The position numbers were made by a program, and so were the translations under genes. Shown here one piece after another: positions 23,496-43,997 of a stretch of 64,000 nt of DNA (positions are counted from its first letter, which is position 1; each line of letters begins with the position of its first letter). The DNA is from Natronospirillum sp. Its GTDB lineage: Bacteria > Pseudomonadota > Gammaproteobacteria > Pseudomonadales > Natronospirillaceae. The notes beneath the pieces are model-generated. The model was not told the DNA's origin and searched no databases. It saw nothing but the letters and a program-made list of their open reading frames with translations. The stretch lies in NCBI RefSeq assembly GCF_022565775.1, contig NZ_JAIUMC010000001.1:1-64000 (forward strand), in the 5' to 3' direction.

Positions 23496-24659
23496 ATGAC
23501 CGACTCAGCACCCCCTGCCTTCGATTTCAGCGCTCTGGTCGACCGTCGTGGTATGGCCAGCAAGAAATGGGCGGCGGCCGAACAGGCCGACCTGATCCCC
23601 ATGTGGGTGGCCGATATGGATCTGCCTGCACCGCCGGCGGTGCAGGCTGCACTGCGCACCATGGCTGAACATGGCATGCTGGGCTATGGCGAGGTGACGG
23701 AGGATCTGGTGCTGGCCTTTCTGCGCTGGTGCGACCGCCACTATGGCTGGACTCCGGAGAGAGACTGGCTGGTCTGGATTCCCGGTGTGGTGCCAGGCAT
23801 GAACGTGGCAATAGAAGCCTGGCTTGGGCACCACGAAGGCTTGGCCACGCATACGCCCGTGTACCCACCCATCTGTCAGATGGGGACTATTCGCGGGCGG
23901 CCGATGCAGTGGCTGGACACGCTAGGCGAGCAGATCGACTATGCCGGACCAGCAGACACGCTGGCCCAGGCGCTAAACCCGGATACCCGGGCGCTGATTC
24001 TGTGCAATCCGCAGAATCCAACCGGCCATGTGTATACCCGGGAAGAACTGGAGGCCATTCATCAGGTCGCTGCCGAACGCGATCTGCTGGTGATAAGCGA
24101 TGAGATCTGGTCGGACCTGCGGCTGGATGATCAGCACCGCCACATCCCCTATGTGAGCCTGAATCAGGACGCCGCCCAGCGTTCGGTGACGCTGCTGGCA
24201 CCGAGCAAGACATTCAATATAGCCGGGTTGTGTTGCGCCGTAGCCGTGATACCTAACCCACAACTGCGTCAGCAGTTCCGCCAACAGGCCAGAGGCCTGC
24301 TGCCGGACATCAGCTATGCCGGGCTGATTGCTGCGCAAGCCGCCTGGGCAGAAGGCGATGCCTGGCTGGCCGCCTTGCGCGCACACCTGAACCGCAACTT
24401 TGATCGTCTGGAGGTGTGGTTGCAGGAGTTTCCGCAGCTTGGCTACCAGCGACCACAATCGACGTTTCTGGCCTGGCTGGACATGCGCGCCTGGCCGCAG
24501 GCAGAAACCCTGGCAGAACGATTCGCGACGGCAGGGGTCATGGTGTCTGATGGGGCACCCTTTGCGGCCCCAGGTTTTGTAAGGCTCAACCTGGGCTGCC
24601 CCGAGGCTCAGCTTGAGCAGGCGCTGCAAAGAATGGGGACGGTTCTGGAGAAGGATTGA
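23496..24659 (+). CDS. MalY/PatB-family PLP C-S lyase or aminotransferase
   Basis: 387 residues, fold type I aminotransferase of the MalY/PatB group. The N-terminal signature (MGSKKW-like MASKKWAA, and PMWVADMDLPAPPAV) marks cystathionine beta-lyase-like members. The PLP site has NPQNPTGHVYT, the Asp in ISDEIWSDL and the Schiff-base Lys in APSKTFNIAGL. It probably cleaves cystathionine or related thioethers to pyruvate, ammonia and a thiol. It may be in one transcript with the lipoprotein gene. A hairpin with a short T-run at 24872-24892 could end it. Confidence 0.88.
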   Translation: MTDSAPPAFDFSALVDRRGMASKKWAAAEQADLIPMWVADMDLPAPPAVQAALRTMAEHGMLGYGEVTEDLVLAFLRWCDRHYGWTPERDWLVWIPGVVPGMNVAIEAWLGHHEGLATHTPVYPPICQMGTIRGRPMQWLDTLGEQIDYAGPADTLAQALNPDTRALILCNPQNPTGHVYTREELEAIHQVAAERDLLVISDEIWSDLRLDDQHRHIPYVSLNQDAAQRSVTLLAPSKTFNIAGLCCAVAVIPNPQLRQQFRQQARGLLPDISYAGLIAAQAAWAEGDAWLAALRAHLNRNFDRLEVWLQEFPQLGYQRPQSTFLAWLDMRAWPQAETLAERFATAGVMVSDGAPFAAPGFVRLNLGCPEAQLEQALQRMGTVLEKD

Positions 24660-24701
24660 TGCTGAAATCGGGCCGGCAGTCGTTTTGACAGACAAAAAAA
24701 G

Positions 24702-24722
24702 GGGCCCTGCAACGCAGGGCCC
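24702..24722 (-). terminator. Strong intrinsic terminator of the small RNA
   Basis: Perfect 9-bp GC-rich stem (GGGCCCTGC / GCAGGGCCC) with a 3-nt loop, followed on the minus strand by C and seven T residues (24694-24700). On the plus strand there is no T-run, so it acts mainly for minus-strand transcription. Confidence 0.9.
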
Positions 24723-24812
24723 AAACCGCATGGACAGTTCTGAAATGGCAGCCCGCGGTGCTACAGGCTGCCAACGGCCCATGAGCGCATTGAATGCGCC
24801 AGGGCTCTAACG

Positions 24813-24851
24813 CTAGGGAGAGAAATAGAAACAGGTCAGTACTGTGGTCAT
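24813..24851 (-). CDS. 12-residue peptide ORF inside the predicted small RNA
   Basis: ATG at 24851 preceded by CTGGAG with 5-nt spacing, encoding MTTVLTCFYFSP and a TAG stop. It is short, hydrophobic and ends in aromatic residues. It could be a leader peptide, a dual-function RNA product, or chance. No homologue is known to me. The good ribosome site and its position in an otherwise structured transcript are the only evidence. Confidence 0.35.
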   Translation of the reverse strand: MTTVLTCFYFSP

Positions 24852-24871
24852 GGCATCTCCAGTTGATCAGC

Positions 24872-24893
24872 AAGGCTTCTGCGAGCCTTTTTA
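24872..24893 (+). terminator. Weak plus-strand terminator after the malY-like gene
   Basis: Stem AAGGCT / AGCCTT with loop TCTGCG, followed by TTTTTA (partly in the stem). On the plus strand it could end the lipoprotein-malY transcript. On the minus strand the same hairpin is near the 5' end of the predicted small RNA. Confidence 0.5.
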
Positions 24894-24953
24894 TGGGGTT
24901 GAGGCGTCTCTCTGTGTTTTATGCTTTTATTCGCTGTTACTTGCTGTAGATTT

Positions 24954-24969
24954 AGCAAGGCCGGTGCCA
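24954..24969 (-). promoter_or_regulatory. Sigma-54 (-24/-12) promoter
   Basis: Minus-strand sequence TGGCACCGGCCTTGCT matches the RpoN consensus TGGCAC-N5-TTGCW at every conserved position. The predicted start is near 24942. An NtrC-family activator with GAFTGA is encoded in the same direction, its stop 265 bp upstream. Confidence 0.8.
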
Positions 24970-25042
24970 ACTCTGTAAAAATAGCGCAAGTCATTGTTTT
25001 TATTGGCTTAATAAGAGAAGAAGACGCATGGGTGGAAAGGCG

Positions 25043-25059
25043 CCAACTATAACCAATGG
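25043..25059. promoter_or_regulatory. Putative activator site 1 (CCAACTATAACCAATGG)
   Basis: 17-bp AT-rich element about 100-115 bp upstream of the predicted sigma-54 start. It differs from the copy at 25188-25204 at only 4 positions and shares the core AACTATAAC. The distance is typical for enhancer-binding-protein sites. Confidence 0.55.
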
Positions 25060-25167
25060 AATAGCGGCGGCTGGAATGTGTGGACCGGATTACTGCCCTG
25101 GCTTCACAAGGCCAGAAGGCAGAAGAAAAAAATCTTTTATAAACAAAGAGTTGTAGATATCCACACG

Positions 25168-25189
25168 GTCAAGCAAGCGCTTGTCTGAC
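25168..25189. repeat. 22-bp imperfect palindrome centred on CAAGCGCTTG
   Basis: A 10-bp perfect core palindrome CAAGCGCTTG with outer arms GTCA/TGAC and two mismatched pairs between. It abuts activator site 2 and could be a further regulator site of the small-RNA promoter. Confidence 0.45.
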
Positions 25190-25220
25190 AACTATAACTT
25201 ATGGACTACCGTTATAACTT
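25188..25220. promoter_or_regulatory. Putative activator sites 2 and 3
   Basis: Site 2, ACAACTATAACTTATGG (25188-25204), is nearly identical to site 1. Site 3 (25209-25220) holds the perfect palindrome GTTATAAC followed by TT. The two are spaced about two helical turns apart, about 250-275 bp upstream of the predicted sigma-54 start. This arrangement fits cooperative binding of a dimeric enhancer-binding protein. Confidence 0.5.
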
Positions 25221-25234
25221 TTTGCATACAGGGA

Positions 25235-26689
25235 TCAGCTCTGTTCAGGATTGCGCATCCGCTTCAGGCGCTTGCTGAGTGCAGGCTGGGAGATTCCCAA
25301 AAACTGTGCCGCAATCGACTGGTTGTAGTCAGCACGGAACAGGGCTTCTTCGATCAGAATCTCGTCCATTTCAGCCAGGCTGGGCAACCGACGATCCAGC
25401 GGAAACTGCACCAGTGACTGGTCACTGGCCGCGGGCTCATCAGCACCGGCATCACTGATCAGACTCAGATGTTCAGGCGCCAGCTCACCATTGTCTGACC
25501 GACTGAGTGCATCAAAGGCAATGGCGCGCAATTCCCGTACATTGCCGGGGAAGTGATAGCTCTGAAGCTGCGCCCAGGTTTCGGAAGTCAACTCCGGCAC
25601 TTCCCGACCCACGTCTGCTGCGGCCTGTTCGAGAAAATGGCTGAAAAGCAGGCGGATGTCTTCGCGACGCGCGCGCAAGGGCGGTATCTGGACCTGATGA
25701 GTACACAGGCGATAGTAGAGGTCGCGCCTGAAACGACCCTCCTTCTGCAGGGCATCCAGGTTCTGATGGGTTGCCACAAAGATGCGAGCCTGCGAGCGCT
25801 CCGGGCGGTCGGCGCCCATGGGGTAGTACTCGCCTTCCTGCAGCAAGCGCAGCAGCTTGACCTGCGAGCCCGGGCTCAGGTCACCAATTTCGTCCAGAAA
25901 CAGCGTGCCACCAGCGGCCGTCTCCACCAGACCACGGCGCTCGCTGTCGGCACCGGTGAAGGCCCCCTTGCGATGGCCAAACAGGGTGTCATTGAAAATA
26001 TGGTCATCCAGCCCTGCCACGTTGACGGTGACCAACTTGCCAGGTCGACCACTCAAGTCATGCACGGCCTGGGCGATCAGTTCCTTGCCCGTGCCGCTCT
26101 CGCCACAGATCATCAACGGCTGGGTGCTCCCTGCGACGGACTCCAGATATTGAAACACCGAGGCCATCTTGCGGCTCTGGGTCAGTATGCGGGCAAAGGA
26201 CTCGGGCGAATCCAGTCGCCGGCTCAGTACCCGTTGGCGCAGGGCCTGGTTTTCCGACTTGATCTCCTGAACCTCGATGGCCCGCTTGATGCCTTCCAGC
26301 AGCCTGTCTGTTTCCGTGGTCTTGACGAAAAAATCGAAAGCACCCTGACGCAGGCAGTCGACAGCGGTTTCCACCTGGTTGAGGCCACTGATAATCACCG
26401 TCACCACGTCCGGATAGGCCTCATTGATGTCATGCAGTAGCTGACCGCCCGACTTTCTGGGCATATTGAGGTCCAGCAGCACGATGCGGATCGGGTGCTC
26501 GGCCAGCATGTCCATCACACGCAGGCTGTCCGAACAGAAATAGAGATGATTGATGCCCGCCTTGCGCTCCAGCAACAGGGCCAGACTGCGCTGGTAGGAC
26601 ACTTCGTCGTCCACCAGCAGAATACCGAAGTGCGGGTAGAGCCCCGCACCACTGGTAACCGCCGAGCTGGCTGTAGCGCTGTTCTGCAT
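25235..26689 (-). CDS. NtrC-family sigma-54-dependent response regulator
   Basis: 484 residues. The receiver domain (about 20-135) has D27-D28 and phospho-acceptor D73 (VLLDLNMP). The AAA+ domain (about 175-400) has Walker A GESGTGKE, the sigma-54 contact loop GAFTGA, Walker B GGTLFLDEIGD and the R-finger region LYYRL. A C-terminal Fis-type helix-turn-helix follows (YNQSIAAQFLGISQPALSKRL). Its ATG overlaps the stop of the kinase gene (TGATG), so the two form a two-component pair. The only sigma-54 promoter noticed nearby is downstream at 24954-24969, with three repeated AT-rich sites, making the small transcript a likely target. Confidence 0.95.
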   Translation of the reverse strand: MQNSATASSAVTSGAGLYPHFGILLVDDEVSYQRSLALLLERKAGINHLYFCSDSLRVMDMLAEHPIRIVLLDLNMPRKSGGQLLHDINEAYPDVVTVIISGLNQVETAVDCLRQGAFDFFVKTTETDRLLEGIKRAIEVQEIKSENQALRQRVLSRRLDSPESFARILTQSRKMASVFQYLESVAGSTQPLMICGESGTGKELIAQAVHDLSGRPGKLVTVNVAGLDDHIFNDTLFGHRKGAFTGADSERRGLVETAAGGTLFLDEIGDLSPGSQVKLLRLLQEGEYYPMGADRPERSQARIFVATHQNLDALQKEGRFRRDLYYRLCTHQVQIPPLRARREDIRLLFSHFLEQAAADVGREVPELTSETWAQLQSYHFPGNVRELRAIAFDALSRSDNGELAPEHLSLISDAGADEPAASDQSLVQFPLDRRLPSLAEMDEILIEEALFRADYNQSIAAQFLGISQPALSKRLKRMRNPEQS

Positions 26690-28383: not shown

Positions 28384-28986
28384 TCAGTACCAGCGGAAGG
28401 TGAAGGCAAGATCAATGCGCTCGTGCGAGCCCTCGAGCGTCAGGCCCCAGTCCACCTGTTCGTGCAGACCGGTAAACAGGCTCACATGACCCAGGACCGG
28501 AAACCGGTCGACATCTTCTTCATAACCACTGGCAATCACACCCAGCTGCCAGGGTGAACCCGACAGCTCGCCGGTCAGGCCAGCCTCGGCGCGCGGATAG
28601 CCGCGTGTCACATCCGTTTCAGCAAATCGGGCATGTAGAATCTCGACCTGACCCTGCACATAGACGCCGGCGCCCGAAGACGGTCGGGTGCTGTAACCCA
28701 GTCCGCCCCGCAGGCGCCACAGAGACACATCGCCGATTCCGTCCTCGTCGTGCATATCCTTGCGCGACAGGCGCAGGGCCAGCGGCACGTCCAGTGTGGA
28801 GAAGAACTGGCGGCGCAACAGAATCGCCCCTTCTGCAAACCGGCCTTCTACATCTTCCAGATTACCGCTGTCACCGCCCAGCGAGGTCAGCCCCAGATTG
28901 ACCCGAAACTCTTCACTCGGATCAGCCAGAGCTGAACTGCCCAGAATGAAAGCCAGAAGGACTGCAATTACAAAAGACTGGCGCAT
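28384..28986 (-). CDS. Outer-membrane beta-barrel protein, unknown function
   Basis: 200 residues. A signal peptide (1-21, ending SALA) is followed by alternating amphipathic strands and a C-terminal aromatic residue in FTFRWY, the signature for Bam-dependent insertion. The size suits an 8-stranded barrel, and it may be YfaZ-like, though I am unsure. Its stop lies next to the start of the SBP-domain kinase, so barrel, sensor and regulator are one transcript. The barrel may help the ligand reach the sensor, but this is inferred from position only. Confidence 0.8.
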   Translation of the reverse strand: MRQSFVIAVLLAFILGSSALADPSEEFRVNLGLTSLGGDSGNLEDVEGRFAEGAILLRRQFFSTLDVPLALRLSRKDMHDEDGIGDVSLWRLRGGLGYSTRPSSGAGVYVQGQVEILHARFAETDVTRGYPRAEAGLTGELSGSPWQLGVIASGYEEDVDRFPVLGHVSLFTGLHEQVDWGLTLEGSHERIDLAFTFRWY

Positions 28987-41513: not shown

Positions 41514-42452
41514 TCAGTCACCCATGACTTCTTCTGTCGCCGCACGGATGCGCCGTACACTGTCTTCCATCTCATCCTGACCGATAAACACTACCGGGAA
41601 GAAGGTGTTGTCTTCGGTGGTTTCACGGAAACGCTCGCTCTCGGAGGCGTACTCGGCCGCCGAGATCAGAGCTTCGCGCGCTTCATCAGGTATGCCCTCC
41701 GGTACGATGATGGTCCGGTAGTCCTCAATGGAGTAGTCATAACCGAGTTCCATCAGGGTCGGCACGTCCGGGTAGAAAGGGCTGCGCTCAGCGCTCAGGA
41801 AGGCGGCAACCACCATTTCTCCGGACGGCGTATACTGGGCGTGCGTGCCGCCAGAGTAGGCGAAATCAACTTCCTTGCCCAGCACCAGCGGGGCCATGCC
41901 GCCACCGCCACCGGTAGGTACGATGGACAGGTCCAGACCTTCCTCTTCTGCCACGTTCTCAATGATGGCCTGATCCAGTGCTGTCTGCTGAGCATAGGTC
42001 ATCGGGTTGTCCCGGCCATATTCTATAATGTCATCAAAGGTCTCGAATGGCTGCTCCGCCGATGTGACGATGGCATTCTGACCGACGGCCAGGGCCGCCA
42101 GGTATTCGAAGTCATCAATTTCATAGTCCACATCACTGATGATGGGTGTGAACGTCAGTGCCGTGGTGCCACCAAACAGGAAGGTATAGCCTTCATCTGT
42201 GTTGTTGGCGAGGCGAGTGAAGGCCACGGCGCTGCCGGCGCCGGGCTGGTTCACGACATTCACCGGCTGCCCGAGGTAGTCTTCCATCACATTGGCCAGT
42301 ACACGGCCCTGAATGTCAGTGGAGCCACCCGGGTTGAAACCGATGACCATGGTCAGGGGGCGCTCGGGCCAGTCAGAAGCCTGCGCAGCGGTGATACCGC
42401 CCACCGCAATGGCAAGCGTTGAAAGCGTAGTTGTTATCAGTTTCTTATTCAT
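41514..42452 (-). CDS. tctC: Tripartite tricarboxylate transporter substrate-binding protein
   Basis: 312 residues from the ATG at 42452 (a start at 42467 lacks a ribosome site). A signal peptide (ending TAAQA) is followed by the TctC-family domain: the start WPERPLTMVIGFNPGGSTDIQGR with substrate-binding segment, and NVVNQPGAGSAVAF. It delivers a carboxylate, often citrate or another organic or aromatic acid, to TctAB. It is the last gene of tctBAC, with the terminator at 41462-41494. Confidence 0.93.
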   Translation of the reverse strand: MNKKLITTTLSTLAIAVGGITAAQASDWPERPLTMVIGFNPGGSTDIQGRVLANVMEDYLGQPVNVVNQPGAGSAVAFTRLANNTDEGYTFLFGGTTALTFTPIISDVDYEIDDFEYLAALAVGQNAIVTSAEQPFETFDDIIEYGRDNPMTYAQQTALDQAIIENVAEEEGLDLSIVPTGGGGGMAPLVLGKEVDFAYSGGTHAQYTPSGEMVVAAFLSAERSPFYPDVPTLMELGYDYSIEDYRTIIVPEGIPDEAREALISAAEYASESERFRETTEDNTFFPVVFIGQDEMEDSVRRIRAATEEVMGD

Positions 42453-42479
42453 AATGGGTCTCTTCATGAGTGTTGAGGT

Positions 42480-43997
42480 TTAAGCTGCCGGATCTCCACC
42501 GGCAACTGGCTTGCCTTTCTTCACCGTGCGCCAGGCCAGCATAAACAAAGCAATGATGGTGCAGACAATGAAGAAGACGGCAATCGGGCGGTTCATGAGC
42601 ACCATTGGATCACCTCGGGATAGGATGATGCTTTGCCGCAAATTGAGTTCAAGCATGGGCGTTATGATGAACGCCACGAGAAAAGTCACGAACGAATAGT
42701 CATAGCGTTTCATGACGAAACCGAGCAACGCGAAAGCGACCAGAATAATCAAACCGAAGGGGCCATAGCCCTGCAGCATGATGCCGGCAAGACAGAAGAA
42801 AATGACAATCGGAATGACAATATGCGGCGGCACACGGGTAATCTGCGCAAAAATACGCAGGCCAAACCAGCCCAGCACCAGCATGATCAGGCTGGCCACA
42901 ATCATCCCTGCGAAGATGGAATACAGCAGTTCCGGTTCGTCGCGCAGCAGCAGCGGCCCAACAGTGATGCCATGAATGGCAAACGCGCCAACCAGCAGCG
43001 CAGCCGAGACATTGCCCGGGATACCCAGCCCGAACAGCGGAATCAGGGCAGCCGGGATTACTGCATTGTCGGCGGACTCCGAGGCGGCAATACCCTCGGG
43101 AGCACCCTGGCCAAAACGTTCCGGGGTTTTGGACGCCTTCTTGGCCATGCCATAGGACATGAACGAGCCCACTGAAGGCCCTAGGCCCGGCAAGGCGCCC
43201 ACGACGGTACCGACGCCAGTGCCACGCAGAATACTGGGGATGGTACGCCGGAATTCTTTCCAGCTCAGCTTGTCCTTGTCACTGTTGTCGAGCTTGACTG
43301 ACATGCTGTCACGCTCGTAGCGCAGCCGCTCCGATTGCACGAACATTTCTGACAGCGCCAGCGTGCCTATGGCTACCGCAATCAACGGCATGCCATCCAT
43401 CAGTTCCGTATAGCCAAATGTCATGCGGGGCAAACCCGTCTGGGCATCCAGCCCAATGGTGCCAAGGAAAATCCCCAGACCACCGGCCGCCAGTCCCTTG
43501 AACAGGGAGCCACTGGACAGGCCAGCAATGAATACCAGCGCAAAAGCCAGGATGGCCGCCATTTCATAGGGGCCGAACATCAGGGCAACACGGGCAAACG
43601 GAATGGCGACAAAGATCAGGATGGTGGTGGCCAGGATATCTCCCATCACGGAGGCAAACAGCCCCACCTTCAGTGCCGTTTTCGGTCGCCCCTGGCGCGC
43701 CAGTGGATAGCCGTCAAGACAGGTGGCTGCCGAGGAGGCTTCGCCCGGAGCATTCAACAGAATGGCCGAAACAGCGCTGCCTGCTGCGGTGCCCTTGGAC
43801 AGGCCAATCAGAAAAGAAATGGCGATAAAGGGCGACATGTAAAACGTCAACGGGATGGCGATGGCAATGGCCACGGACCGGTTCAGGCCCGGAATCACGC
43901 CAATGATATATCCAAGCAAGACGCCGCCGCCGATCCCGATAAACGAACGAAGTGAAAGCGCCTCGCCTATTGCGCCAGCTACAAAGTCCATATTCAT
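42480..43997 (-). CDS. tctA: Tripartite tricarboxylate transporter large membrane subunit
   Basis: 505 residues from the ATG at 43997; AGGAG lies ten bases upstream. It has 11-12 membrane helices and the two TctA repeats with GVIPGLNRSVAIAI and GALPGLGPSVGSFMSYG motifs. It is the Na+-driven channel subunit that takes substrate from TctC. The start comes 2 bases after the stop of tctB and precedes tctC by about 30 bp. Confidence 0.94.
   Translation of the reverse strand: MNMDFVAGAIGEALSLRSFIGIGGGVLLGYIIGVIPGLNRSVAIAIAIPLTFYMSPFIAISFLIGLSKGTAAGSAVSAILLNAPGEASSAATCLDGYPLARQGRPKTALKVGLFASVMGDILATTILIFVAIPFARVALMFGPYEMAAILAFALVFIAGLSSGSLFKGLAAGGLGIFLGTIGLDAQTGLPRMTFGYTELMDGMPLIAVAIGTLALSEMFVQSERLRYERDSMSVKLDNSDKDKLSWKEFRRTIPSILRGTGVGTVVGALPGLGPSVGSFMSYGMAKKASKTPERFGQGAPEGIAASESADNAVIPAALIPLFGLGIPGNVSAALLVGAFAIHGITVGPLLLRDEPELLYSIFAGMIVASLIMLVLGWFGLRIFAQITRVPPHIVIPIVIFFCLAGIMLQGYGPFGLIILVAFALLGFVMKRYDYSFVTFLVAFIITPMLELNLRQSIILSRGDPMVLMNRPIAVFFIVCTIIALFMLAWRTVKKGKPVAGGDPAA

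Follow-up and report, generated by a model that had tools for sequence, protein, structure and literature searches.

A sigma-54 regulator-promoter module that precedes transporter genes in relatives precedes a putative small RNA in Natronospirillum sp.

The stretch of Natronospirillum sp. DNA analysed here, hereafter the window, spans 64,000 nucleotides and harbours on its minus strand a two-component system followed by a putative small RNA (sRNA) gene. The order on that strand is a sensor histidine kinase gene (28383-26689), a response regulator gene (26689-25235) and then a 575-base gap in which no protein gene is credible, bounded downstream by a convergent aminotransferase gene on the plus strand (23496-24659; Pfam Aminotran_1_2). 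The kinase, as identified by Pfam, its orthologues and a structure match, comprises a periplasmic SBP_bac_3 domain, HisKA and HATPase_c; its Pfam list also has a weak, overlapping NMT1 match. Among solved structures, the sensor-protein chain 3h7m_A matches the kinase best, over query residues 30-255 in the periplasmic part, and the next matches are several glutamine- and other amino-acid-binding proteins. These domain and structure matches indicate that the ligand is likely an amino acid. By Pfam, the regulator is of the NtrC type, with a receiver domain, a sigma-54 AAA+ domain containing GAFTGA and a Fis-type HTH. When it was aligned with the regulators of six of the 17 other loci described below, the phosphorylation site D73, GAFTGA and the HTH stretch GISQPALSKR proved invariant in all seven sequences. 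Both genes are intact, and their identity to the genus g5 orthologues amounts to 66-71% for the kinase and 73-76% for the regulator. Directly upstream of the kinase gene, a 200-residue protein is encoded at 28384-28986 (minus strand), with a signal-like start by eye and no Pfam match at E 1e-10. Elsewhere in the window, two proteins encoded at 41517-43997 (minus strand), tripartite tricarboxylate transporter-like by eye, are 95-96% identical to those of the sibling genome G001; other apparently orthologous proteins are 66-83% identical to their G001 counterparts, which suggests recent exchange or strong constraint for that pair.

A sequence-only reading of the 575-base gap had proposed a sigma-54-driven small RNA directly downstream of a GAFTGA-containing regulator, a position that our analysis bears out, with the kinase gene beside that of the regulator. 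The RpoN promoter that it reported is present as an exact motif, TGGCAC-N5-TTGC (TGGCACCGGCCTTGC, 24955-24969, minus strand), which aligns with TGGCCY-N5-TTGC in six relatives. The intrinsic terminator, with its seven T residues, is likewise where it was placed (24722-24694, minus strand) and consists of a 9-pair stem and a T tract (GGGCCCTGCGTTGCAGGGCCC-C-TTTTTTT). Setting the +1 at 12 nt past the -12 box gives a predicted start at about 24943, within one base of the 24942 proposed earlier. The coordinates and features of that reading are thus correct: promoter motif and terminator bracket a predicted noncoding transcript of about 250 nt (24694-24943, minus strand). Its predicted fold starts with a small 5' hairpin, is weak in the middle and continues with two GC-rich hairpins up to the terminator. 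As for their significance, the exact RpoN motif has a chance expectation of 0.37 in the window, with 34 of 100 shuffled versions containing one, and 1.0 terminator of this kind is expected by chance in the 901 bases scanned. Since motif and terminator by themselves are at chance level, the case for the RNA rests on their conserved context and not on the motifs.

This context consists first of three putative activator sites of the GTTATA type on the minus strand. The two distal ones, TGCAAAAAGTTATAA (25212-25226) and GTCCATAAGTTATAG (25192-25206), align with the first and second sites of six relatives and deviate from TTCCANNNGTTATAR by two mismatches and one mismatch, respectively. The proximal site, TTCCATTGGTTATAG (25047-25061), matches TTCCANNNGTTATAR exactly and is the only exact match in the available genome. 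Closer to the promoter, an IHF-like site, AAACAATGACTTG (24987-24999, minus strand), differs at one position from WATCAANNNNTTR, which we take to be the IHF consensus; a match as good is found in 5.8% of shuffles. When the window is aligned with the six g5 loci, the promoter and all three activator sites stand out as the chief invariant blocks. The spacing is also preserved. Every one of the 11 loci with the module has its proximal site 83-88 nt before the -24 box, and the best IHF-like match starts 29-31 nt before that box in ten of them, L092 being the exception. Considered alone, the IHF-like match of five of these loci, the window included, finds its equal in about 6-50% of shuffles.

These loci come from searches with the kinase. 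Strong matches (E<=1e-80) are present in eight of 22 genomes of the family. For the order, with a cut-off of E<=1e-110 and four candidates scored per genome, 14 of 293 genomes have a match; both counts include the genome studied here. We compared 18 loci, namely that of the window, seven of the family (L090-L096), nine of the order (L106-L114, one genome contributing two) and, through a scan of a named contig collection, L010. GTTATA-type sites and a TGGC-N7-TTGC sigma-54 promoter are found directly downstream of the regulator gene in 11 of the 18. The module is missing from that place in L010, L106 and L110-L114, all seven of which we counted as misses. In L010, whose kinase is 53% identical, the contig ends soon after the regulator gene, with no sigma-54 match and, by eye, the start of an aspartase-like gene.

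In all ten other loci with the module, the next gene codes for a transporter, and a short terminated RNA stretch was found at the window locus only. An aapJQMP-like ABC operon lies behind the module in six genomes of genus g5 (Pfam was run on one of the six aapJ), an SDF sodium:dicarboxylate symporter gene in L096, L108 and L109, and a sodium:alanine symporter gene in L107. Thus, the same module, with orthologous kinase and regulator and with the same sites and spacings as here, precedes aapJQMP, an SDF symporter or a Na/alanine symporter in genera g5, g2, g35 and g104, whereas here it precedes a short terminated RNA. One genome, G211, has two kinase/regulator pairs with the same promoter layout, L109 on contig C5 (SDF) and L107 on contig C22 (Na/alanine). 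At the sequence level, this comparison delineates a family of sensor pairs of the amino-acid type in which the promoter layout is fixed and the transporter targets are interchangeable. The fixed spacing across different families and the invariant DNA-binding stretch argue that the promoter in the window is very probably a real target of the adjacent regulator. Judged by sequence and conservation, the putative sRNA locus combines a predicted sigma-54 promoter with predicted activator sites of the adjacent NtrC-type regulator, as expected of a sigma-54-dependent sRNA under the control of such a regulator.

The sequence-only reading had let its proposal depend on conservation in related genomes. 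The promoter is conserved, but in relatives it precedes transporter genes, and the RNA body was found in full in none of the 389 other genomes of the order (390 searched, including its own, with two candidates scored per genome, so that weak relatives could be missed). This search returned fragments of 23-39 nt in nine other genomes, at the terminator end in three, and one weak second match of 25 nt in the same genome, on contig C15. Similarly, with the RNA region as a DNA query against 57 genomes, its own included, and up to twelve candidates scored per genome, a full match was obtained in its own genome alone. As the RNA body is found in full only there, these searches offer no indication that the RNA itself is under selection. 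At gathering score, no Rfam family matches the window, GlmY/GlmZ, Qrr and other described sRNA families included, nor do any match at ten related loci. With E values up to 5, nothing credible was obtained for 24600-25250, the six sub-threshold matches being far below gathering and four of them sitting over the 3' hairpins and terminator. The fold of the whole RNA has z scores of -3.1 and -3.0 in two runs and of -1.8 without its last 40 nt, so that, the terminator aside, the structure does not clearly exceed chance. A crude duplex test of the RNA against 21 ORF starts, including those of four aap genes, yielded no signal (z of +0.8 for aapJ; lowest z of -1.9, for the ORF starting at 28986), with a measure that is poor for long RNAs.

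Whether the pair might have other targets in the genome was addressed with the same site patterns. The assembly comprises 3.55 Mb and is 91% complete, which makes the absence of further targets elsewhere provisional. With at most one mismatch, TTCCANNNGTTATAR has five matches in it. The exact one and a one-mismatch match lie in this gap, and the other three, with one mismatch each, are within or at the edge of coding ORFs. As the reversed-pattern control gives 35 matches against 5, the count itself is not enriched and position alone is telling. A close pair of GTTATAR motifs occurs once in the genome, at this gap (the control gives 4), and at the equivalent place in all six g5 genomes, five of which have no other match and one of which, G014, has one extra. 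There is one unrelated match in G001 and none in G015, and the controls equal or exceed the pattern count in eight of the nine genomes. We regard the G001 match (C23:468450) as due to chance, since it comes without a kinase/regulator match and without a sigma-54-like site just downstream. The second pair in G014 (L150, C1:107817-107840) lies between two ORFs, away from the kinase/regulator locus, and might mark another target.

The genome has an aapJ homologue of its own on another contig, together with aapQMP-like genes, and its product is 60% identical to a g5 AapJ. About 67 bases separate the start of this aapJ from a sigma-54-like site upstream, TGGCCTACCAATTGC, which has a counterpart in the sibling G001; the two sites lie at about 4968-4982 in L123 (contig C11 of G000) and at about 4227-4241 in L124 (G001). 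No GTTATA is present in the roughly 900 bases upstream of the gene. With no GTTATA and a different sigma-54-like site, the aap operon is not a direct target of the regulator by these sites. Hence this operon, which in g5 lies behind the regulator, is apparently under another control here. Further stretches upstream of aapJ are similar by eye between L123 and L124, and with the conserved sigma-54-like site they suggest a different activator. As far as these patterns can tell, the kinase/regulator pair looks maintained while the promoter of the putative RNA is its only recognised target.

The comparison of loci establishes, at the level of sequence, a conserved regulator-promoter module with no credible gene behind it in the window. 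From this we infer how ligand, DNA binding, transcription, Hfq binding, action in trans and targets might fit together. The kinase would sense a small periplasmic nutrient, probably an amino acid, and phosphorylate the regulator, which would occupy the three GTTATA-type sites that follow its own gene and, aided by a DNA bend at the IHF-like site, activate RpoN polymerase at 24955-24969. In relatives the same switch lies before genes for the uptake of amino acids or dicarboxylates; in the window it would yield an RNA of about 250 nt that ends at the intrinsic terminator, and no protein of note. The RNA might then be a trans-acting one that, together with Hfq, regulates mRNAs for uptake or catabolism, such that the output of the sensor would have moved from making a transporter to the post-transcriptional adjustment of others. 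Genes for both RpoN and Hfq are present in the genome. Since kinase, regulator, sites and promoter are intact and this promoter is the only recognised target, a working RNA is favoured. The idea of an undescribed two-component-controlled small RNA therefore stands in part. The promoter is a predicted conserved output of the adjacent pair, no Rfam family matches, the RpoN and Hfq genes are at hand, and a working regulatory RNA is the likelier reading, although the RNA body is not conserved. That a trans-acting sRNA is truly at work at the output of a transporter-type two-component system is, in our estimate, evenly poised between true and false.

The main alternative is that the promoter is a relic. 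The transporter operon would have been lost or replaced, and the promoter would still fire, giving rise to a leader without a role, ended by a nearby terminator. The transporter genes behind the module in all ten other loci would fit such a loss, as would an RNA body unique to its own genome among those searched. In addition, the sibling G001 has no kinase match at E<=1e-80, and its aminotransferase gene has different neighbours. The leaders of the relatives are also suggestive. Six of the ten loci, all with g5 aapJ, have sigma-54-driven leaders of 230-311 nt, about the length of the RNA, which are hairpin-rich by prediction and poorly conserved (L090:5159-5430, L091:6319-6548, L092:5281-5590, L093:6262-6494, L094:5194-5504 and L095:6330-6632). 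Our comparison covers these six, the leaders of L096, L107, L108 and L109 being outside it. All 15 pairs among them show similarity, at least in the gene-proximal part, and a consensus structure is almost absent. Similarity of the RNA to any of the six is nevertheless not clearly above that of shuffles, 18 of 300 shuffles being as good in the best case. Moreover, an exact RpoN motif, sites and spacing have been kept, the pair is intact and no other intergenic target was recognised, and a kinase/regulator pair whose single target is dead should decay. We thus consider a relic promoter a possibility to be taken seriously, if a doubtful one.

Alternatively, the element might act in cis, as an antisense or collision device against the convergent aminotransferase gene, the message of which could run into the RNA. 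The end of the RNA is 35 bases from the aminotransferase stop, and a scan of 24400-25300 found no plus-strand terminator. However, that scan was crude, the RNA does not overlap the coding sequence, and, as mentioned, the aminotransferase gene of G001 has other neighbours; we deem such a role very unlikely.

The absence of a protein gene behind the promoter, as claimed by the sequence-only reading, holds with some caveats. Two minus-strand ORFs start inside the RNA, of 269 codons (ATG at 24782) and 95 codons (TTG at 24873). As both extend past the terminator and overlap the Pfam-supported aminotransferase gene in antisense, we took them for shadow ORFs and set them aside as genes. A 48-codon ORF (24994-24848) begins upstream of the predicted +1. 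The sole ORF of at least 10 codons within the RNA that has a Shine-Dalgarno-like site is a 12-codon one, MTTVLTCFYFSP (24813-24851, minus strand), with GGAG five bases before its ATG, and it is probably there by chance. A leader peptide or short mRNA, with this ORF or, less likely, one that reads through the terminator as its product, would account for the GGAG and for the starts inside the RNA, but it is the least probable reading, given that 84 of 1000 shuffles hold a small ORF of this kind, that there is no downstream gene to attenuate and that the longer ORFs have the features of shadow ORFs just described.

Returning to a working sRNA, it is tempting to propose an evolutionary route to it. 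An ancestral transporter-switching system would have been rewired by gene replacement behind its conserved promoter, so that its sole recognised target is now a new sRNA. We hold this scenario tentatively, as one that may well be wrong. If it is true, an sRNA can take over a regulated promoter, and sRNA genes can be born from transporter promoters.

Our literature searches turned up no title on this kinase/regulator pair or on the RNA, and such work may still exist. Three described systems invite comparison. The sequence-only reading had likened the locus to crcZ next to cbrB, with a different kinase and sequence, and the likeness is indeed one of arrangement. The Rfam model of CrcZ, RF01675, has no match in the window or in the whole genome, the latter run being a weak one in which control genomes also gave no match. 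CrcZ and CrcY RNAs carry several AAnAAnAA (CA) motifs for Hfq/Crc, unlike the RNA here, which has no such motif and one GGA, and the activator sites differ as well. In Pseudomonas and Azotobacter, an NtrC-type regulator gene is likewise followed by a separate sigma-54-driven sRNA gene, crcZ being described as a unit of its own downstream of cbrAB, with a sigma-N promoter activated by CbrB (PMC8871633, PMC6296734). CbrA is described as having SLC5, STAC and PAS domains (PMC8871633), whereas the kinase here has SBP_bac_3 and none of those at E<=0.001. The QseEF(GlrKR)-GlmY system also places a sigma-54 two-component system beside an sRNA gene that it activates (PMC8745638, PMC6075780). However, glmY is reported to precede qseEGF (PMC8745638), the RNA here is downstream of its regulator gene, and the sensors differ. 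As for the transporter side, the two-component control of an amino-acid ABC operon is known from AauSR-aatJQMP, for acidic amino-acid uptake in Pseudomonas (PMC7386598), and the orthologues of the pair in genus g5 appear to control such an operon too. AauR is described as binding TTCGG-N4-CCGAA (PMC7386598), a type of site different from that found here; it is absent from this promoter region at up to two mismatches. The locus thus has the arrangement of cbrAB-crcZ and comes near that of glmY-qseEGF, with no membership of CrcZ or GlmY by any test made. If the RNA is transcribed and functional, it would represent another independent case, like CbrAB-CrcZ and QseEF-GlmY, of a sigma-54 two-component system with an RNA output, and one whose relatives reveal the likely ancestral state, a transporter promoter.
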